Origin: Lunularia cruciata
Lineage: Eukaryota; Streptophyta; Marchantiopsida; Lunulariales; Lunulariaceae
Assembly: GCA_948567375.1 (NCBI GenBank)
Contig: OX419756.1
Coordinates: 74,848,333 to 74,912,332 of the forward strand
Length of the DNA stretch: 64,000 nt
Direction of reading: 5' to 3'
Numbering within the stretch: position 1 is the first letter of the stretch; each line of letters starts with the position of its first letter. The translations under genes and the position numbers were made by a program. Shown piece after piece: positions 15,371 through 32,075 of the stretch. A model generated the notes under the pieces. The model was not told where the DNA came from and ran no database searches. It was given only the letters and a program-made list of their open reading frames with translations.

Positions 15371-15790
15371 TGTAACAATATGGAGTTTAGCAACAAAGTT
15401 AGTCGGGCTTACGAAGTAGAGAATAAGACAAAATAGCCTAGAATATTATAAAAGCATCTAAGAAGCTTCTTAGGAAGCTTCCCAACTAGTTAACTTGCGC
15501 CCTAAGCAGGTAGCTTCTAGAAGGAAGCTTCTAGAAGCTTCAAACTAGTTTAGCTTGCACGCCAAGTAGGCGGCTTCTAGAAGGAAGCTTCTTGAGAAGC
15601 TTCTTGGTTAACTTGGCTTGCACTCCAAGAAAGCGGCTCAAGGACTTCTTGAGAAGCTTCAAGGGTCTTGTATGCTACCTATAAATACCAAAGCCAAAGC
15701 TCATGCTGGGCATTCGGAGTTTTCCCTCATTCAAGTGTCCAATGTGAGTTTCCATTCTCCTATTTCTTTCCTCGGATTTGGTCTTTTACA
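15371..15790 (+). repeat. Element B 5' LTR
   Basis: TGTAACAATATGG...GGTCTTTTACA. U3 is built from repeated AAGCTTC and TTCTAGAA motifs (see the regulatory entry), followed by a TATA box at 15680-15687. Confidence 0.92.
15462..15687 (+). promoter_or_regulatory. Heat-shock-element array and TATA box in B LTR
   Basis: Perfect GAAnnTTC or TTCnnGAA modules occur at 15462-15469, 15474-15481, 15515-15522, 15524-15541 (GAA-GC-TTC-TA-GAA-GC-TTC, four units in register), 15575-15582, 15584-15591, 15596-15603 and 15653-15660. TATAAATA follows at 15680-15687. Three or more alternating units match the known heat-shock factor site. Comparable heat-responsive elements drive the Arabidopsis ONSEN (ATCOPIA78) LTR. 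That this array binds HSF is inference. The 3' LTR keeps the four-unit site at 25382-25399. Confidence 0.6.
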
Positions 15791-15791
15791 T

Positions 15792-15803
15792 TGGTATCAG
15801 AGC
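15792..15803 (+). other. Primer-binding site of B (initiator Met tRNA)
   Basis: Exact TGGTATCAGAGC one base after the LTR end. Confidence 0.9.
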
Positions 15804-17014
15804 AGGAATGGGATGGATGGAATTTATGGACCACCAAATCCACTTCCGCCAAACCATTGGGACTTTCATGTCCAGATATTACCAAAGCATTGTTTCACAC
15901 AATTCATCACCTTGCGCTTTGGGCAGGATTTTCTACATATGATCATTGTGTCAGAGGAACCCTTGATACTTCTAGTTGTAACTTATGGAGAACGGTGGAC
16001 GTGTTGTATCTATGTGTTAATCAACTAGATAAATTGAGGATAGTGGAATAGAGTAGTAGCGATGGTGGCAATATGGGATGTTATCCTTGCAATACAATAA
16101 CAAATTGAGCATCTTACTTGATTGTTGGATGAACAAGACCAGCAACGACGAGAACAAATAGACAGGGCACCAATTCAAGATGGAAAAGATTGCATTCAAT
16201 TTCCAAAACCCAAGGTGTTTGAAGGCAAGAATCTTCCAAACACAGTGGAGAATTTTGTGTTTGATTGCGAACGTTACTTTGAAGCCACCAATCTTCAAGA
16301 TGAGTGGAAACAAATTCTCTTGGCTTCTAGCCGACTGGATGGTGTGGCAAAACTTTGGTAGCGATTTCAAGAAGAAAGAGCTGAACAACAAATGGTTACA
16401 CCAATTTTGACATAGGCAGAATTAAAGATCCAATACTTGGTCAATTTCAAACTATAAATGCTCCCCGAGCCGCACGAGATAAATTAGCGGAGTTGAGGCA
16501 GATTGGCTCAATGAGAAGCTACATCACACAATTTCAAAACATCATCATGCAAATTCCAAATATCCAAGAAGGTGAAGTCCTGGATCGATTTGTGCGAGGA
16601 TTGAAGTCACAAACCAAATTGGAGGTGACCATGTGGGAGCCACAAAATGTAGAAGAAGCCATGCAATTGGCTGAGCATTTTGATTCCTTGGTTTTGACAA
16701 GTTGGTCTTGACCTTGACCTACACAAAGTCTACCAGTACACTATGCACAAGTGGAAGAACCGGTACCAATGGAGATTGATGCTATCCAACAAAGACCACT
16801 TGGCACAACAGATAGAGAAAGATTATGACAAAATGGAGATTGCTTTTATTTTCACCAAGTTGGACATCGCATTGCTGAATGTCCACTTAGGAATGGGTGA
16901 CCTCGACAAGTTGCCCAGATAGAGTTTGTGGAACAGAATAATCAGGGAAATAAAGAATCCCAATAGGAGATTTTGAGCCGCCTACTGGGAGCTTGATTAG
17001 TTCCAATGGGATTG
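15804..17014 (+). pseudogene. Element B gag
   Basis: Capsid gene with several open pieces. 16122-16361 contains FPKPKVFEGKNLPNTVENF and FDCERYFEATNLQDEWKQ; 16493-16711 contains MRQIGSMRSYITQFQNI and LDRFVRGLKSQTKLEVTMWE. A degenerate zinc knuckle (HQVGHRIAECPLRN) lies near 16850-16895. A GTAG stop at 16360 and frameshifts break it. The gene runs into A2, whose GATTG target duplication ends it at 17014. Confidence 0.8.
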
Positions 17015-17502
17015 TGTAATACCAAGGGTTAGCCATATGATCTAGATGTGAAATTTGGTTTGGTAACATCTAGAATGATGTTATACATGATGGTCAAAAT
17101 AGATCAGATAGAAGTATCACCAAAAGAGTACTTCTACTAATAGGGCAGAAACCGAAATAGACTTGAGAACCTTAGAACCAATAGCTAGACATATGATTTA
17201 AAGGTGAGAATTGGTTTGGTAACATCTAGAAGGATGTTACACATGATGGACTAAACAGATCAGAAAGAGGTATCACCAAAAGGGGACTTCTACTAATAGA
17301 GTAGGAACCGAAATATGCTTGAAATCTTTGAAGGCAATTTTGGAGGCCTAAACGGATGAATTAGGCCTTGAAAATGTGCAGATTCCTCCCCCCCCCCCAA
17401 TGGAGGAAAGGCTGGCCTTCCCTCCCCCCTGGTTTGTCTCGTCGAGAGCTTTCCAACGGTACCTTACTCATGTGATTCTAAGATTCCTACAAGAAGATTC
17501 CT
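17015..17502 (+). repeat. Element A2 5' LTR, truncated
   Basis: Begins TGTAATACC and follows the 3' LTR until CAAGAAGATTCC, then breaks off. It contains both copies of the internal ~150-bp duplication (units near 17032-17174 and 17187-17325) and a run of about ten C. Confidence 0.9.
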
Positions 17503-19506
17503 GGCTCAATAAGGAAGCAGAGAAGCGAGGGAAGGAAGAAGAATAATGTGCAAAGATCCAAAAAGGCAACCTCACAATTGATTGTCGTGAATGGAATCCT
17601 AGAAGGTAATCAAGTGAGAGTATTAATAGACCCGGGAGCAACAAAGAATTTCTTGTCTCGCTCTGTTGCAATCAGATTGGGAATGGATCTAGAGAGAGAT
17701 GGAAGTGAAGAAGTAGAGTTACCAAATAGGCAAACAGAGAGGATTGAATCATTACCTAGACGGGTAACCCTCTATGTAGGAGAATATCAGGAAGCAATTG
17801 AGTGGCGAGTGATATAGTTAGCCTGTTATGATGCAATTTTAGGCATGCCATGGATGGAGCAGTACAACCTAATGGTGGATTGGAGGAAGAAAGTAGTGAG
17901 AACCCACCAATGGTCAATCATTGGGGTTAAAGAAAAATCACACATGCAGAAACTGCCTCTATATGTCGTAGGGACGACAACTATCTGTAAGACCGATAGA
18001 TGTTTTCTGGGTCTAATAAGAGAAGTCTAGAGTGCACAACTCGCTGGACAAATTACTGAGAAATTGAAGGATGTGGTGGATGAGTTTCAAGATGTCTTTC
18101 CCGATGATCTACCCTCAGGATTACCACCTAAAAGGCGAGTAGATCACAAAATAGAGACACTCCCGGGGAAGACACCTCCTTGTAAGGCCCCATATCGCCT
18201 ATCACCTCATGAGTTGGAGGAGTGTAAGACTCAAATTGAGGAGATGCTACAAAAAGGGTTCATCCAACCTAGCGTATCACCATATGGGGCCCCTGTCTTG
18301 TTTGTGAAGAAGAAGGATGGTACAATGCGCATGTGCATTGACTATCGGGGTCTCAATCAGCAAACAGTGAAGAACAAATACCCCTTACCTCGCATGGATG
18401 ACCTGTTTGATCAACTCCATGGAGCGAGATACTTCACCAAACTGAACTTGCGGAGCGGTTACAATCAAATCCGAATTGCAGAGGAGGATGTGTACAAAAC
18501 TGCCTTTTGAACCAGGTATGGCCACTTTGAGTATCTTGTGATGCCTTTTGGCCTCACCAATGCGCCTGCCACTTTCATGAGCCTAATGAATGACATATTT
18601 CGTCCATACTTGGATAAGTCTGTTATCGTCTTCTTGGATGATATCTTAGTATATAGTAGCACGATCACAGAACACAAACAACATCTACAAGAGGTCCTCC
18701 AGATTCTAAGACAGAATCAGTTGTGCGCCAAAATCTCAAAGTGTGAGTTTGGCAAGTCTGAAGTAGACTACTTAGGGCATAGAGTAAGTGCAGAGGGCAT
18801 TCAAGTATTGATAGATAAAATAGAGGTCATTCAAAAATGGAGTGCCTCAGAAGATCAGACTCAACTTAAGAGCTTCTTGGGGTTGACGGGATTCTATCGT
18901 AGATTTGTCAAGGACTTCTCCAAGGTTGCACAGCCTTTAACGGCACTACTTGGCAAGGGGAAGAAGTGGACATGGGGAACTGCACAAGAGTTGGCCTTTC
19001 AAGAATTGAAGGCCGCCTTGCTACATGCACCAATCTTGAAGTGGTATGACCCAAAACGTCCAATCAAGTTGGCTACGGATGCATCAGGTGTAGCAATAGG
19101 AGCAGTCCTACAACAAGAGTGGCATGACGGATGGCATCCAATTGCATATTTCTCTCAAAAGTTGTTACCGGTAGAGCGCAACTACCACACCACAGAACGA
19201 GAAGAGCTGGCCATTGTTCTAGCAACCAAGCATTGGAAGCACTACCTGGGCAAGAAGGCATTTGTAGTAGAGACAGACCACAAACCTCTAGTCTACCTCG
19301 AGACGCAGAAGGATCTATCTCGTTGCCAAATTTGGTGGGCAGAGTGGCGACAATGCTTCAACATGACACTCACCTACGTGGAAGGTAAGAAGCAACTTGC
19401 AGATGCGTTCACCCGCATGCCAATGGCCAACAACTTGGCGGCAGAGGTTAAGATTAACCCTGAATTCTGGCAAGAGATTCTAGCTGCTACAAAAATGGAT
19501 CCATAG
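17503..19506 (+). pseudogene. Element A2 protease, RT and RNase H
   Basis: Best preserved pol copy. Protease: VRVLIDPGATKNFLS (17605-17655), triad Asp-Pro-Gly. RT: 18064-18510 with [19 protein letters not shown] and motif A reading [13 protein letters not shown], where the catalytic Asp is Asn (A1 keeps Asp); then [12 protein letters not shown] and the [12 protein letters not shown] box (18538 on). Connection and RNase [69 protein letters not shown]. In-frame stops: TAG 17815-17817, TAG 18028-18030 (A1 has CAG), TGA 18508-18510, TAG 19504-19506 (shared with A1). Dead despite long open frames. Confidence 0.9.
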
Positions 19507-20907
19507 ATTGTAGAAGCGCAAGCGTCCAAAGGTGTCACCAGCACCCAAGGACTCACTTTTCGGGAGGGCCGATTGTGGATCCCAAATGTCCCAGAATTAC
19601 GCACCACCATTCTAGTGGAATGTCATGATTCGGCCATTGCAGCTCATGTCAGAGTGGACAAGACCTTGGAGGCAGTCAAGCGCCATTACTATTGGCCCAA
19701 GATGAGCAACGACGTGATGGACTATGTGCGTAGCTACCTACTTTGTCAACAGAACAAAGCTTCTAATCAAGCTCCTGCAAGGCTCCTTCAACCTCTTCCC
19801 ACTCCTACCCAACGTTGGGAACAAGTGAGTATGGATCTCGTCTGTGAATTACCCAAGACCACCTCAGGGTTTGACTCCATTGTGGTCTTTGTGGACCGGC
19901 TCAGCAAAATGATTCATGTACGCCCTACCACCAAGGAGGTGACCGCTCCACAACTAGCTCAACTATACTTAGATGCAGTCTTTGCTCACCATGGCTTGTC
20001 TAGAGTACTCATCACCGATAGAGGCACCCAATTCACCAGTTTGTTTTGGCAAACACTCTTTGGTTTCTTCAAAACCAAGTTGGCCATGTCTACAGCTTAC
20101 CACCCACAAATAGATGGCCAAACAAAGCGGGCTAATTGCACGATTGAAGACATGTTACGCGGCTTCACCTTAGAAGAGCAAGAGAGGTGGGACACCCTAC
20201 TACCGTTGGTGGAATTCGCTTACAACAATTCAGTGAATGCCTCCACCCAGGTCACTCCGTTCTTCCTCATGTATGGTGAGCATCCCTTCACACCTTCTAG
20301 CTTGATGAAGATCCGTCCAGTGACTACCAAGGTTGATGCAGTCAACACATTTGTTTCTAGAATCCAACAAGGTGTGGAGAGCGCCAAGCACAGGTTATAG
20401 ATTGCGCAAAATCGACAAAAGCAGTATGCTGATGCACACCGTAGGCACATGGAGTTCAATGTTGGGGATCAAGTGTGGCTATCGACAACCAACCTCACAT
20501 TAGTTGGATCTTGTAAGCTCAGACCTCGTTTTATTGGGCCTTTCTCGATTCTTCGTCGCATCGGCGCCGTGGCCTATCACCTTGAGCTACCACCACACAT
20601 GAAGATCCATCTAGTGTTCCATGTCTCCATATTACGCAGATATGCTCCCCAATTAGGCCAAGGTACTTCCACACAAGACATTCGACCTTGTCCGACAGTC
20701 ATTGATGGCACAGAGGAATATGAAGTGGAGCGGATTCTCCAAAAGTGCATGCGTGGTACTCGCCATCCGCGGGTGGAATATCTAGTACAATGGAAAGGTT
20801 ACCCCCTCTATGAAGCAACTTGGGAACCCGCTGCCAATTTGGCACATGCATCGGTGTTGGTGCAAGCATTTGAGCAACAATTGCACAACGAGGACGTTGC
20901 GTCTTAA
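19507..20907 (+). pseudogene. Element A2 integrase and chromodomain
   Basis: Open frame 19573-20400: HHCC-type N-terminus (ECHDSAIAAHVRVDKTLE through LCQQNKA) and integrase core with Asp in WEQVSMDLVCEL, Asp in VLITDRGTQFT and Glu in NCTIEDML. After an in-frame TAG (20398-20400), 20449-20907 encodes MEFNVGDQVWLST, the GPF tail and a chromodomain (VEYLVQWKGYPLYEATWEP), ending at TAA. The chromodomain places the family among plant chromoviruses. The TAG between core and tail is also present in A1 and A'. Confidence 0.9.
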
Positions 20908-20919
20908 AAGGAGGGAGGT
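20905..20919 (+). other. Polypurine tract of A2
   Basis: TAAAAGGAGGGAGGT lies immediately before the 3' LTR and is conserved before the A1 3' LTR (26363-26378); it is the expected plus-strand primer site. Confidence 0.8.
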
Positions 20920-20920
20920 C

Positions 20921-21660
20921 TATAATACCAAGGGTTAGCCATATGATCTAGATGTGAAATTTGGTTTGGTAACATCTAGAATGATGTTATACATGATGGT
21001 CAAAATAGATCAGATAGAAGTATCACCAAAAGAATACTTCTACTAATAGGGCAGAAACCGAAATAGACTTGAGAACCTTAGAACCAATAGCTAGACATAT
21101 GATTTAAAGGTGAGAATTGGTTTGGTAACATCTAGAAGGATGTTACACATGATGGACTAAACAGATCAGAAAGAGGTATCACCAAAAGGGAACTTCTACT
21201 AATAGAGTAGGAACCGAAATATGCCTGAAATCTTTGAAGGCAATTTCGGAGGCCTAAACGGATGAATTAGGCCCTGAAAATGTGCAGATTCCTCCCCCCC
21301 CCCCCCTATGGAGGAGAGGCTGGCCTTCCCTCCCCCTGGTTTGTCTCGTCGAGAGCTTTCCAACGGTACCTTACTCATGTGATTCTAAGATTCCTACAAG
21401 AAGATTCCCTAAAAGATTCCCTCCGGTCAAAGCTTGTTTGACCAACCAGATAGGACCTAGACTAGACAGGTCACCCATCCAAGTAAGTAATCCAAGGGTG
21501 GAGCTTGCTGACATGTCACCTATCTGTGTCCCTAATCCTATGGTGGAGCTTCCTTGGATGAGATCCTCTTGTCTATATAATAAAGAGAAGGTGCTCCCTT
21601 GGGGCATCAAATGTTTGAGTGTGCAATCTGTGTTTTCTCTCTTGTCCTCGGAGTATTACA
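20921..21660 (+). repeat. Element A2 3' LTR
   Basis: TATAATACC (terminal TG changed to TA) ... GAGTATTACA, about 740 bp. Contains the internal duplication and a 14-15-base C run at about 21293. Confidence 0.9.
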
Positions 21661-22249
21661 GATTGAAGGCTCGACCTATGCAAGTTTGCTTCACTTGCAA
21701 GGTACAATATCTAATTGGGGTTGTAAAATTTTGGTTGATTTTGGAAGTTCAAAGAATTACATGTCTATGCAAGTAGCACAGACATTTGGTATTCCTATCA
21801 AGCCAGTGTTTGGAAGTAGTTTGATGATGGCGGATGGTAGAAAGGGTTCTACATTCCGCACCTCACATCTTGTTACCTTCAAGATTGGGAAGGAGTATTT
21901 GGAGTGTATGAGGTTTGTAGTGGCACCTCTACACTATGATATCATTATGGGTCTACCTTGGCTTGAACATCATAAGGTTCAATTCGATTGGACCCGACAA
22001 CAAATTTCCGATTAGGTTGTCTGGCACCTCCAAGTAAGACGATTGATTAAGAATAGTCAGTCCCAAGATGGGAAGTTTGTTGAGAAGGTAGCGATAGAGT
22101 GAATCTATAAGGGAGATGAGCCCCAAGATGGAAAGTTTGCTAAGAAGGCAACCATGGAGCAAGCTTGGAAGAGAGATGAGTCACTCAAAGGGAAGTTTGT
22201 TAATGAAACGGCCATAGAGCAAGCTTTGGAGGAAGATAAGTCTGTATTC
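21661..22249 (+). pseudogene. Element B protease region
   Basis: Resumes after A2 with CKILVDFGSSKNYMSMQVA near 21725-21775 and MADGRKGSTFRTSHLVT through LPWLEHHKVQFDW. Triad is Asp-Phe-Gly, as in C. The open frame closes at 22015 and is followed by degenerate linker sequence. Confidence 0.85.
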
Positions 22250-23680
22250 ACGATGTGGATCAAGCCAATTGCACAAGAACAATCTAAGGAGGGCCAAGAG
22301 CCTCATCAAGCAATGGGTTGATCGGATAGTTCAAGAGTTTGCAAATGTATTTCCGGATGATCTGCCAAAGGGATTACCCCTCAATCAAGGTATGTCCTTC
22401 AAGATCAAGTTATTGCCAAGGAGTACTCCAATGAGTAGACCAATCTATCGGCTCTCACCAAAGGAGTTGGATGAGTTGCAAACAACACTTATAGAGTTGT
22501 TTGAGAAGGATTTCATATGACATAGTACCTCTTCTTGGGAAGCATTGGTACTATTTGTTCCAAAGAAGGATGGAGGACTTTGTTTCTATATTGATTATCG
22601 GGGACTCAATAAGCAAACCGTGAAGAATGCATATCCCTTGCCTCAAATTGATGCCTGCTTTATCAACTAAGGGGCACATGCTACTTTTCCAAGCTGGATC
22701 TTTGTAGCGGCTATTGGCAAATTCCTATGGAAGGAGAGGACGTGCAAAAGACTACCTTTCGCACAAGGTATGGACATTTTGAGTGGAGAGTTCTACCTTT
22801 CGGACTCACTAATGCTCCAACAGTCTTCATGGATCAAATGCATCGGGTGTTGGAGGGACTATTGGATCGGTCCGTGGTGGTGTTCTTAGATGATATCCTA
22901 ATCTATAGTAGGACAAAGGCAGAACACATGAATCATGTGCAAGAAGTCCTAAGACGACTACGATAGTGGAAATTTTATTGCAAGAAGTCAAAGTGTGCTT
23001 TTTGGCAAAAAGAGGTTACCTTCTTGGGTCATAAGATCTCATCAGAGGGGATCAAGATAGAAGAAGAGAAGATCAAGGCCATTATTGATTGGCTTTACCC
23101 AAAGGATGCTATAGAAGTACGAGCATTCAATGGTTTGGCCAGTTTTTACCGATGATTCATCCATTATTATGCTCACGTGGCTGCACCATTGATTGACCTC
23201 TTGGGAAAGAACTCGAGCTTCTAGTGGACCACCAAGCATGAAGAAGCATTCCAGAAGTTAAAGCATATGGTGTCTTCAAGACCCATTCTTCAACCATATG
23301 ATCCTCAACTACCTTGTGTGGTTGATTTTGATGCTTCTAACTTTGCAATTGGAGTTGTGTTGCAACAAGAATTTCCAAATGGACTACATCCTATTTCCTT
23401 TGTGTCTCGCCAACTAAATACAATTGAAAGAAATTACTCTGCTCGAGATCGGGAACAACTTGCAATGGTATATGCCACCAAGGTATGGAGGCATTATCTC
23501 TTGGAGAAACAAGTGATCATGCAAACTGATCACAAGCCATTGTTGCAGACCTTACATTTGGAGCACATGAAGAGTCTGCATCATCGATGGGAAGAGCAAC
23601 TCCAATTGTTTGACATCAAACTTGAGTACAAACTAGGTTGGTTCTATGTCATCCCTGATGCTCTATCATGACGAGTTGAT
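22250..23680 (+). pseudogene. Element B reverse transcriptase and RNase H
   Basis: Open pieces: 22269-22520 (VDRIVQEFANVFPDDLP to LFEKDFI, closed by TGA 22518-22520, shared with C), 22727-22966 (TTFRTRYGHFEWRVLPFGL, SVVVFLDDILIYSRT, closed by TAG 22964-22966) and 23267-23671 (RNase H: VDFDASNFAIGVVLQQE, ARDREQLAMVYATKVW, MQTDHKPLLQ, PDALS, closed by TGA 23669-23671, shared with C). Motif A reads FSKLDLCSGYWQI near 22690, so RT catalytic Asp residues are kept, but stops inactivate the gene. Confidence 0.88.
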
Positions 23681-25214
23681 TTGAAGGCCCTTCCTCTCAT
23701 CACGGTGGCAATTACAACGGTGTCCATTGACCCTAAGGTCCATAATGAGTTTCAATCAGCTCTACAACAAGACCCTTTCTTCCAAATGGTACACGGTCAT
23801 ATGATAGCATGCGGCAAGGAGTACAACACCTTCTCCTTCAAGGAAGGCCTTTTATTCCATGCAAACCAGATCTAGGTTCCAGCCAAAGGTGATCTTTGAC
23901 TTGTGTGCCTTCAAGAAGCCCATGATTTACCAATAGCTAGTCATATGGGAGTGGACAAGACCTTGGGCACCTTCCAACGCCAATGGTGGTGACCCAATAT
24001 GACACAAGATGTTCAAGACTTTGTCCAATCATGTGAGAGTTGCCAATGTAACAACGCTAGCAACCAGAAGCCGAGTGGACTCCTTCAACCACTCGCCATT
24101 CCATCCGCTCACTGGGATCATGTGAGCTTGGATCTATTTCACATCCTTGCCAAAGATAAAACAAGGACACACCACAATTGTGGTGTTTGTGGATAAGCTT
24201 AGTAAGCAAATCCACCTGGCACCAACTTGTGATACCGTGGATGCTCCAACCTTAGTGCAAATCTACTTTGACAATGTCTTCAAGCATCATGGGCTGCCAT
24301 GTGTACTCATCTCTGACTATGATCCTTGATTTACTAGAAAGTTTTGGCAAGCACTCTTCCAGATACTCGGCACTAAGCTTGCTTTTTCCACGGCCTATCA
24401 TCCTCAAACTGATGGACAAACCAAATGCGCAAATTGTACATTGGAGGATATGTTGCGAGCCTTTGTCAATGTCCACCATACCAACTAGGATGAATGTCTT
24501 GCAGCTGCAAAATTTGCCTACAACAATTCCAAACAAGCAAGCACTTGATTTTCTCCCTTCTTTCTCAACTTTGGCCAAGATCCGCTTGTTCCAGATTCTC
24601 TTCTTGCTCCCCCTCCCTCTCAGGTTCCTCATACTTCCACATTCTTGACCACTATATCCCAATCTCTCCAACAAGCCAAGTCTCACCTCCTTGTTGCTTA
24701 GAATCACCAAAAACAATATGCATACCACCATCGTCATGATCTCACCTTTGAAGTTGGTGATAAAGTCATGCTATCCTCTAGTAACCTCCTTCTCCCACTT
24801 GATACCCAAGTTTGTAAACTTGCCCTTAATTGGATAGGACCCTTTGATATCACACACATTATCTCTTCTATTGGTTATCGACTTGCCTTGCCTTGCCTTG
24901 TCACATGCGTATCTATCCTATCTTTCATGTTTCCAAGTTGAAACCCCTTGTTCCTAACCCCTCTTCCTTTCCCTCTTGAGTCCAACCATCCCCTCTTCTT
25001 GTCTCTATCAATGATCATGAGGAGTACGAAGTTGATCGTATCCTTGCACATTGCCATATTCAACAAGGCCATCGCCAACATACGGAGTACAAGGTCCTTT
25101 GGAAAGGATATCCCCTTCATGATGCCACATGGGAACCTCTTTCCCACCTCCAAAATGCACAGACGGCCATCAAGGAATTCAAAGCTTCACTGGCGACGAG
25201 GACGTCACCAACTA
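23681..25214 (+). pseudogene. Element B integrase and chromodomain
   Basis: HHCC region: HDLPIASHMGVDKTLG and VQSCESCQCNNASNQ (23920-24070). Core: HWDHVSLDLFHILAKD, VVFVDKLSKQIHLAP, HHGLPCVLISDYDP with TGA 24327-24329 shared with C, then AYHPQTDGQTKCANCTLEDML (frame shifted). The tail has a chromodomain-like block with TEYKVLWKGYPLHDATWEPL near 25080-25140. Purine-rich GGCGGGGGAATA precedes the 3' LTR. Confidence 0.82.
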
Positions 25215-25228
25215 GCGGCGGGGGAATA

Positions 25229-25651
25229 TGTAACAATAAGGAGTTTAGCGACGAAGTTAGTCGGGCTTACGAAATAGAGAATAAGACAAAATAGCCTAGA
25301 ATATGATAGAAGCATCTAAGAAGCTTCTTGGGATGCTTCCCAACTAGTTAACTTGCGCCCTAAGCAAGTAGCTTCTAGAAGGAAGCTTCTAGAAGCTTCT
25401 AACTAGTTTAGCTTGCATGCCAAGTAGGCAGCTTCTAGAAGGAGGCTTCTTGAGAAGCTTCTTGGTTAACTTGGCTTGCACTCCAAGAAAGCGGCTCAAG
25501 GAGCTTTCTTGAGAAGCTTCAAGGGTCTTATATGCTACCTATAAATACCAAAGCCAAAGCTCATGCTAGGCAATCGGACTTTTCCCTCATTCAAGTGTCC
25601 CAATGTGAGTTTCCATTCTCCTATTTCTCTCCTCGGATTTGGTCTTTTACA
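25229..25651 (+). repeat. Element B 3' LTR
   Basis: TGTAACAATAAGG...GGTCTTTTACA, 423 bp; retains the four-unit heat-shock-like site at 25382-25399 and the TATA box. Confidence 0.92.
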
Positions 25652-27126: not shown

Positions 27127-27489
27127 ATGGGGCCAAAATACCTAAAATATTCTAAAATTATCTATGAAGCTTCCTGACTAGCTTAGCTTGCACCGCAAGT
27201 AGATAGCTTCTAAAAGAAACTTCTTGAGAAGCTTCCGACTAGCTTAGCTTGCATGCCAAATAAACAACTTCTAGAATGAAGCTTCTTGAAAAGCTTCCCA
27301 ATTAGCTTGGCTTGCACTGCAAGAAAGCAGCTTGAGGGAGCTTCTTGAGAAGCTTCTCAAGGGCCTTGTTTGTTCCTTATAAATACCGGAGCCTAAGCTC
27401 ATGCTAGGCATTCAGAGTTTTCCCACATTCAAGCATCCCAATATGATCTTCTATTCTCTAATTTCTCTCCTTGGTCTTGGTTCTTTACA
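27127..27489 (+). repeat. Element C 3' LTR, right piece
   Basis: Continues the LTR begun at 8797; first five bases are the ATGGG duplication. It carries a perfect three-unit heat-shock-like site GAA-GC-TTC-TT-GAA at 27278-27290, other GAAGCTTC modules, TATAAATA near 27380, and ends TTCTTTACA. Confidence 0.85.
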
Positions 27490-30065: not shown

Positions 30066-30496
30066 TGTAAAAGACCAACACCCATGAGAGAAATTCATGT
30101 GTTCCAATAGACAATCACATTGGAACACTAGAATGTGAGAAAACTCCGAATTCTAGCATGAGCTTTAGCTTTGTTATTTATAGAGAGCATACAAGGCTCT
30201 TGAGAAACTTCTTAAAAAGATTCTCAAAGCTACTTTCTTGGAGTGCAAGCCAAGTTAACCAAGAAGGTTCCTTCTAGAAGCTACCTATTTGGCATACAAG
30301 CTAAGCTAGTTAGAAATTTCTAGAAGCTTCCTATTAAAAGCTATCTACTTGGAGTGCAAACTAAGCTAGCCAGGAAACTTCCCAAGAAGCTTCCAAGTAG
30401 CTTCTTAGATACTTCTATAATATTTTATGCTAATTTGGCCTATTTGCTACTTCATTAACCTTGAAAAAATTCATTGTTAAACTCCATATTATTACA
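30066..30496 (-). repeat. Element E 3' LTR
   Basis: Begins TGTAAAAGACC, ends CCATATTATTACA (plus strand). Has a perfect TTC-TA-GAA-GC-TTC module at 30318-30330. Confidence 0.8.
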
Positions 30497-31651
30497 CTAA
30501 TCATCATGCTCTACAATTTTCATTTGGGCTATTTGTTGGTGTCATCAATTCTTGAGTGTGCATTCAACAATGCAATACTCAATTTAGCAACAATAAAAGC
30601 AGCCATCATTTTTTTTGCAATCTTTCCTTACTTGTAGGCTCAAGTGGTTTCCACTGGACGGTATCAATCTCCATTGATATTGGCTCTTCCACTTGTGTAT
30701 AGTGTACAAGTAGATTCGATTTGGGTCGAGGTCTAGACCAAGTTGTTGCAACCAAGGAATCAAAGCGCTCAACCAACTGCATGGCTTCCTCCAAGTCTTT
30801 AGGCTCTCGCATGGTCACTTCCAATTTGGTGCATGACTTTAAGCCTCTCACAAATTGATCTAGAGCTTCATCTTCTTATATATGTGGAATTTTCATAATG
30901 GTGTTTTGGAATTGCATGATATAGCTCCTTACAAAGCCAATTTGCTTCAACTCTACCAACCAATCTCATGCAATTGGTGTGGCATTTATAGTTTGGGATT
31001 ATAGTTTGGGATTGACTAAGTATTGCACTCTTGAATCCTCTTCATGTCAAAATTGGTGCAACAATTTGCCATTCAGCTTGTTCCACTTGGAACCTCCACC
31101 ATAACTTTGCCACTCCATCCAATTGGCTTGAAGCCAAGAGGATTTATTTATGTTTATCTTGAAGGTTTGTAGCTTCAAAATGACATTCATAGTCAAACAA
31201 AAAGTTCTCTACTACATCCAAAAGATTCTTGCCTTCAAATACCTTGGGTTTTGGAAACCAACTTCTATCTTCTTCTTCTTGAATTGGTGCCCTCTCTACA
31301 CGCTCATTGTTGATGGTCTCATTCATCCAACAATCAAGGAAGGTGCCCAATTTGTTGTTGCATAGCAAGTATAAATTTGGGTATTGCCACCATGGCTATT
31401 ACTCTATCACACTACTCCTAATTTATCTAATTTATCAACATGTAGATGTAGGACATCCACCGTTCTCCATAAGTTACAATTGGAACTACCAAGGGTTCCT
31501 TAGACAAGGTGATTACATTCAAAAAAAATTGCCCAAAGCATGAGATGATGAATTGTGTAAAAAAATGCTTAGGTAGTATTTGGACACAAAAATCCCAATG
31601 GTTTGGCAAAAATAGATTTGGTGGTCAATAATTTCCATCCATACCATTGTT
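30497..31651 (-). pseudogene. Element E gag
   Basis: Minus-strand blocks: FPKPKVFEGKNLLDVVENF and FDYECHFEATNLQD (frame 31144-31368), MRGLKSCTKLEVTMRE and MQLVERFDSLVATTW (frame 30606-30851), then a decayed zinc knuckle. Collinear with B gag, with scattered lesions. Confidence 0.8.
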
Positions 31652-31663
31652 GCTTTGATACCA
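31652..31663 (-). other. Primer-binding site of E
   Basis: Plus strand GCTTTGATACCA, i.e. TGGTATCAAAGC on the minus strand, one mismatch from the initiator tRNA-Met site. Confidence 0.75.
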
Positions 31664-31664
31664 A

Positions 31665-32075
31665 TGTAAACGACCAAGATTGAGGAGAGAAATAGGAAAA
31701 TAGAAGATCATATTAGGACACTTGAATGTGGGAAAACTCCAACTGCCTAGCATGAACTTTAGCTCTAGTATTTATAAGGAGCATACAAGGCTCTTGAGAA
31801 GCTTCTCAAGAAGCTTTCTTAAGTCATTTTCTTGGAGTGTAAGCCAAGTCAATTGGGAAGCTTCAAGAAGCTTTTTTTCTTGAAGCCATCTACTTGGCAT
31901 ACAAGCTAAGCTAGTTGGAAACTTCTAGAAGCTACCTACTTGGGATTCAAGCTAAGCTAGCAGGGAAGCTTCCAAGTAGCTTCCTAGATGCTTCTAAATT
32001 ATTCTAGGTTAATTTGGCCTATTAACTACTTTGTTAGCCTTGACCAACTTCATCACTAAATTCCATAGTGTGACA
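31665..32075 (-). repeat. Element E 5' LTR
   Basis: Begins TGTAAACGACC, ends CCATAGTGTGACA (plus strand). Perfect three-unit heat-shock-like sites at 31857-31869 (GAA-GC-TTC-AA-GAA) and 31918-31930 (GAA-AC-TTC-TA-GAA). Confidence 0.8.

Follow-up and report, generated by a model that had tools for sequence, protein, structure and literature searches.

The B element and its neighbours

The window, a stretch of 64,000 nucleotides at C2:74848333-74912332 of a 566-Mb plant assembly, contains a retrotransposon, B, whose two long terminal repeats (LTRs) are identical at 402 of 420 aligned positions (Table 1). Its recognisable domains follow the order gag, protease, reverse transcriptase and RNase H (Pfam) and a chromodomain (PF00385) lies at the C-terminal end, as in Ty3/Gypsy chromoviruses, the group in which the earlier note had placed it. 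A possible integrase piece at 24126-24329 has no Pfam match and resembles rve by eye. B is not ONSEN (COPIA78) itself, having the Ty3 order and a chromodomain instead of the Ty1/copia order. The primer-binding site is one which we take to be of the initiator-Met type. Scans with Rfam and for tRNAs gave no matches in the window.

Table 1. Features of the B element and of related LTRs, in window coordinates
Feature	Position	Strand	Remarks
B 5' LTR	15371-15790	+	420 bp, TGTAAC...TTTACA, then TTGGTATCAGAGC
HSE array in B U3	15462-15660	+	eight in-register perfect GAA/TTC runs
Four-unit (4P) HSE	15524-15541	+	GAAGCTTCTAGAAGCTTC; in B 5' LTR
TATAAATA box	15680-15687	+	20 bp past last HSE of B 5' LTR
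Primer-binding site	15791-15804	+	TTGGTATCAGAGCA; called from sequence; adjoins B 5' LTR
gag fragment	16385-16711	+	Pfam Retrotrans_gag
Open stretch with protease fragment	21584-22015	+	Pfam gag-asp_proteas; downstream of nested F
Reverse transcriptase fragment	22652-22966	+	Pfam RVT_1
RNase H fragment	23225-23671	+	Pfam RT_RNaseH_2
Open stretch with B chromodomain	24980-25294	+	Pfam Chromo PF00385, 6e-16; runs into 3' LTR
B 3' LTR	25229-25651	+	4P HSE 25382-25399
C LTR	27134-27489	+	lacks first ~60 bp; 3-unit HSE 27278-27290
E3 LTR	30066-30496	-	4-unit HSE 30313-30330
E5 LTR with PBS	31665-32075	-	3-unit HSEs 31857-31869 and 31918-31930

A second chromovirus, F, is nested in B at 17015-21660, between gag and protease, with ~740-bp LTRs and a pol that has its own chromodomain in 20401-20907; from 4946 to 29124 there are six more F LTR copies of ~740 bp. 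None of the eight F LTRs (one partial) contains a run of three or more heat shock element (HSE) units. The F-like sequence around E5 and E3 (30066-32075) is missing ~1.76 kb.

Differences between paired LTRs give an indication of age. The least diverged pair belongs to an element (L003-L018) spanning 5.64 kb with 423-bp LTRs, dimensions which presumably indicate the Reina lineage. Its LTRs differ at 2 of 423 positions, those of the pair L023/L021 at 14 of 423 and those of B in the window at 18 of 420, corresponding, at substitution rates of 1.3e-8 and 6.5e-9, to ~0.2-0.4, 1.3-2.6 and 1.7-3.4 My, respectively. The B-family chromovirus is young in places.

The HSE array of the B LTR

Across U3 of the B 5' LTR (B5), perfect GAA/TTC units follow one another in register as seven two-unit runs and one four-unit (4P) run. 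These start at 15462, 15474, 15515, 15524 (the 4P site), 15575, 15584 and 15596, the last occupying 15653-15660; scored as overlapping two-unit modules, the array counts 10. The earlier note had described at least eight perfect modules within 200 bp, among them a four-unit site in register at 15524-15541, and an array ending 20 bp ahead of the TATAAATA box, all of which is present as described. 3P or 4P sites placed within U3 and ahead of a TATA box are the arrangement of an ONSEN-type LTR promoter driven by heat shock factors (HSFs). Within the first 300 bp of B5, GAA/TTC pairs are found at a spacing of 2 (10 times), 4 (three times), 6 (four times) or 12 (once), and at no other value between 0 and 12.

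In one copy, L002, the only one in which the repeat was measured, U3 positions 92-292 form an HSE-bearing ~60-bp tandem repeat of ~3.3 copies, and 18 of the 30 best B-LTR matches in the assembly have an extra 3P site, GAATATTCTAGAA, near position 71. Tandem duplication of a ~60-bp unit of U3, beside this upstream 3P site, is the probable way in which the B array expanded. CHG sites are few, averaging 1.4 per 300 bp of U3 in B and 1.5 in E, with 7.5 in the window and 10.8 in shuffled L002; the corresponding figures for CG sites are 5.1, 1.8, 5.9 and 13.8.

Over the whole window, runs of three or more units are concentrated in the B, C and E LTRs, these five copies (2,041 bp) accounting for six and the remaining 61,959 bp for two. 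The sites that had been noted in the other copies all exist, one of them under-called, since 30318-30330 is part of the four-unit run 30313-30330. Retention in four separately inserted or diverged LTRs had also been noted, and the number of insertions is about right: B5 and the B 3' LTR are one insertion, C is another, and E5 and E3 are probably two because the identity between them (82.6%) is about that of each with B5 (82.1 and 82.6%). Together with the ~1.76 kb missing from the surrounding F-like sequence, this gives 'E' the look of two insertions joined through a deletion, not one element.

Comparison with shuffled sequence, based on 1,000 shuffles of B5 per k-mer order, had a divided outcome. 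The 10 two-unit modules exceed the shuffled mean at every order reported, at 0.41 with dinucleotides kept, 4.66 with pentamers and 8.41 with hexamers, 10 being reached in 0, 0 and 25 of the 1,000 shuffles, respectively. Chain length fares less well: the observed level of three- and four-unit chains is attained in 4 and 3 shuffles with 4-mers kept, in 154 and 84 with 5-mers and in 882 and 545 with 6-mers, the last two orders being ones at which shuffling alters the B5 sequence little. At these two orders chain length, taken alone, falls short of the shuffling criterion that the earlier note had set for refutation. As hexamer shuffles reproduce the three- and four-unit chains, the case rests on genome-wide data.

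Copies of the LTR in the assembly

A first look with the B LTR as query gave 3,390 candidate places; the E LTR gave 8,873 and B gag 5,984, 40 of each being scored. Among the best 30 B-LTR places, which include B5 itself (L001) and two LTR pairs (L003/L018 and L021/L023), the equivalent of the four-unit site is present in 29, the other (L027) having three units. Of 30 E-like places, E5 itself (L031) included, 28 contain a run of at least three units, L051 and L059 being without one and L043 alone reaching four.

Both of these sets were picked by LTR similarity; further samples were drawn independently of U3. Where LTRs were located through the sequence from TATA box to U5 (R/U5) alone, all 10 full U3s had at least three units and six had four, a further four flank matches without a full U3 being set aside. 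All four LTRs fetched by linkage to gag, out of at least 39 gag matches outside the window, likewise had at least three units. More extensively, a 19-mer spanning the LTR end and PBS, a junction chosen blind to U3, occurs 2,427 times (1,221 + 1,206), a number that may include other families. In a slot 31 bp wide, 231-261 bp upstream of it, a perfect three-unit HSE is found at 1,704 of these junctions (854 + 850, 70%); in the same slot the reversed motif gives 0, and units at a spacing of 3 instead of 2 give 7. Among the matches listed, which cover C1 up to 4.4 Mb, a 4P site lies within the LTR at 9 of 15 junctions, and six pairs of 4P sites are 5.0-5.25 kb apart, as expected of the two LTRs of one element. 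The proposal that the array belongs to the family is thus upheld by the B and E sets, the U3-blind samples and the junction count alike, these copy counts being non-independent since LTR copies descend from common masters.

The abundance of the sites is visible in the 566-Mb assembly as a whole. The GAA-first 4P pattern has 7,083 occurrences and its reversal 117, over a background of one to two hundred. In the opposite, TTC-first phase the count is 208 against 154, near chance, and the excess is therefore confined to one phase, that of the B-family LTR. For five GAA-first units, both strands together yield 138 matches (67 + 71), against 9. Among the matches listed, the centre reads TTC(T/C)AGAA in 49 of 50 distinct 4P places. 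As an estimate over the whole count rather than a site-by-site assignment, we infer that most of the 7,083 sites belong to the B/C/E family. Of 30 five-unit matches, including single places seen on both strands, 16 are contained in the best B- or E-LTR match, as is L074 by separate comparison, and four loci (L067, L077, L087 and L088) show no match to any LTR used in the comparison. Four diverged relatives (L066, L069, L071 and L072), selected for having five-unit sites, carry them with different spacers, their longest matching piece to B5 being 45-145 bp at 73-80%.

Conservation of HSE cores

The earlier note had also suggested that the sites are retained across diverged LTRs, and the aligned cores are indeed held between the B and E subfamilies. 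Comparing majority letters of 29 B and 29 E copies over aligned U3 columns, with gapped columns omitted (10 at cores, 8 elsewhere), none of 61 HSE-core columns differs, against 28 of 236 others. When core labels were shuffled within context classes, a mean of 4.8 core differences resulted and 76 of 20,000 shuffles reached zero. Within E, too, the cores change less than sites of matched context (18/5,000). Within B they are no better kept (1,048/5,000), as young drifting copies would give; conservation beyond chance across the family, gapped core columns excluded, goes with a non-significant result for B alone. The E set is without the first unit of the 4P site, so that E-like copies are mostly 3P. 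Among 16 hand-picked U3s, three of which (L074, L079 and L090) were selected for five units, the four-unit site shows two departures in 12 core columns and seven in 6 spacer columns, and in eight of the 16 its first unit lacks the two leading columns. As a separate observation, L074 and L079 have six in-register units, so that array length differs among LTR copies.

A candidate heat-shock promoter

We consider it likely, with a probability of roughly 0.7, that host HSFs drive the B-family LTR upon heat, the LTR functioning as an ONSEN-like promoter in an unrelated and far more abundant family. U3 of this Ty3/Gypsy chromovirus family would be a heat-shock-type promoter with ~10 in-register nGAAn modules, among them a perfect 3P/4P site located ~140-160 bp ahead of the TATA box, further modules reaching to within 20 bp of it. 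Under heat stress, trimers of host HSFs would bind the modules and, once bound, would drive genomic RNA from the LTR; a promoter of this kind may also have aided the spread of the family. Plant HSFs have a preference for GAAGCTTCTAGAA in DAP-seq.

Several lines of evidence argue for this reading: the one-phase excess of 4P sites (7,083 against 117, with the opposite phase near chance); the HSEs in the junction slot (1,704 of 2,427, controls 0 and 7); the U3-blind copies with at least three units (10/10 and 4/4) and the 4P sites at C1 junctions; the invariant aligned cores, the pairs at spacing 2 and the young LTR pair. To these may be added the heat-shock promoter layout and precedents from other systems. 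HSFA2 is reported to bind the ONSEN LTR in Arabidopsis (PMC3907296; PMC5059998); heat induction of ONSEN across Brassicaceae goes with 4P heat-responsive elements (HREs), the strongest HRE class (PMC5059998); ONSEN's 4P site is traced to duplication of a proto-HRE (PMC3907296; PMC5059998); and most HSEs tested in a C. elegans study, four- and five-unit ones included, were bound cooperatively (PMC9148306). The same paper has, as a target for HSF-1, a nematode gene probe that contains the 13-mer, GAAGCTTCTAGAA or TTCTAGAAGCTTC (PMC9148306). Weighing against the HSF-driven promoter are the hexamer shuffles, the gapped core columns, the null result within B, the non-independence of copies and a strong U3 RNA fold. 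In a positive control, the 441-bp stretch upstream of one candidate small-HSP gene of the host (L095, drawn from 28 HSP20 matches) contains no HSE run, so that the control either failed or lay outside the promoter.

Some of these opposing points are what would be expected were the GAAGCTTC and TTCTAGAA modules by-products of tandem duplication in U3 and of a word-rich composition, with no role for HSFs: the L002 array does sit on a ~60-bp tandem repeat, hexamer-preserving shuffles yield equal chain numbers, core conservation within B is not significant and the alignment of the subfamilies leaves 10 core columns gapped. Such an origin, which we regard as unlikely, sits poorly with aligned cores that are unchanged between subfamilies (0/61 against 28/236; 76/20,000) and better kept within E, with perfect spacing already inside the duplicated unit, and with the five-unit sites of the four diverged relatives, which have other spacers, though they were picked for those sites. 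The strong fold could instead mean that the palindromes have a structural role within the 3' UTR when transcribed into genomic RNA, in packaging, dimerisation or 3'-end formation. As a single sequence, U3 RNA folds at -97.7 kcal/mol against a shuffle mean of -68.2 (z -6.5). Across the 16 hand-picked U3s, RNAalifold nevertheless gives an unfavourable covariation term (+1.18) with a compensatory double change in one of 45 pairs, and pairing alone needs no 5-bp register of GAA/TTC; we consider this role very improbable.

Binding by HSFs, or by other factors that recognise GAA/TTC, might also serve constitutive, developmental or other-stress expression, not heat. Plant HSFs are numerous and part of them are not heat-specific, a point in favour of such a role; 21 are reported in Arabidopsis (PMC3907296). 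The 4P architecture, in contrast, is reported as the one that goes with heat induction among COPIA families (PMC5059998), and expression unconnected with heat appears distinctly unlikely beside a heat-driven promoter.

Relation to known heat-responsive elements

The B-family LTR resembles that of ONSEN/COPIA78, which is 440 bp long and contains nGAAn units clustered as a 4P site (PMC3907296; PMC5059998). The two differ in class, ONSEN being Ty1/copia and B a Ty3 chromovirus; in copy number, with 8 full-length ONSEN copies in A. thaliana against thousands of B-family LTRs; in the number of modules, higher in the B-family LTR; and in the CG sites present in B-family U3. HSF binding and heat induction have been demonstrated for ONSEN; the B-family LTR is a putative HSF-driven promoter, proposed from sequence.

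That a Ty3 chromovirus with such an array would be an independent case of a heat-responsive retrotransposon, as had been proposed, needs qualifying. Among plant Ty3/Gypsy elements, bamboo PHRE1 and PHRE2 are reported to be heat-induced (PMC8656106), as the B family is proposed to be, and so are Cryptomeria Ty3 elements (review, PMC9780303). The main text of the PHRE1/PHRE2 paper contains no words beginning 'HSE' or 'HSF'; the factors that it names include TCP, DOF and GATA (PMC8656106). In Cryptococcus, TCN3 (Ty3/gypsy) and TCN12, mobilised at 37 C, have putative HSEs in their LTRs, two and one respectively; these are fungal elements for which, unlike the B family, the part of the report consulted describes no large array (PMC12810828). 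HSEs in Ty3 LTRs are hence not wholly new, those of TCN3 being putative, and what is notable in the B family is HSE density together with thousands of copies. Among the matches listed in a search of the open-licence literature, covering titles and the beginnings of abstracts, no HSE array in a plant chromovirus LTR was found. Helitrons in C. elegans are reported to hold the majority of that genome's HSEs, often clustered; unlike the B family, the Caenorhabditis Helitrons are animal DNA transposons for which HSF-1 binding has been shown (PMC6927752).

A wider reading, tentative and somewhat doubtful, is that nearly all of the strongest HSEs of this plant lie in one chromovirus family which, if the sites are accessible, both launches itself on heat and acts as a genome-wide sink for HSFs and a dispersed supply of heat enhancers. 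Were that true, ONSEN and the Caenorhabditis Helitrons would have a counterpart among Ty3 elements. If the LTRs are HSF-driven, chromoviruses evolved heat-responsive LTRs independently, and such LTRs can accompany expansion to thousands of copies, unlike low-copy ONSEN. Most strong HSEs of a plant genome would then be transposon-borne, and HSF titration and heat-regulatory rewiring would therefore be directly testable.

Five-unit sites also occur in a different repeat (L076 and L077, near 1501), in which the site, GAATTTTCAAGAATGTTCAAGAA, stands beside a PBS-like CCCCGGCAG stretch; among the matches listed, the 23-mer of this five-unit site is present in 10 of 100 five-unit entries.
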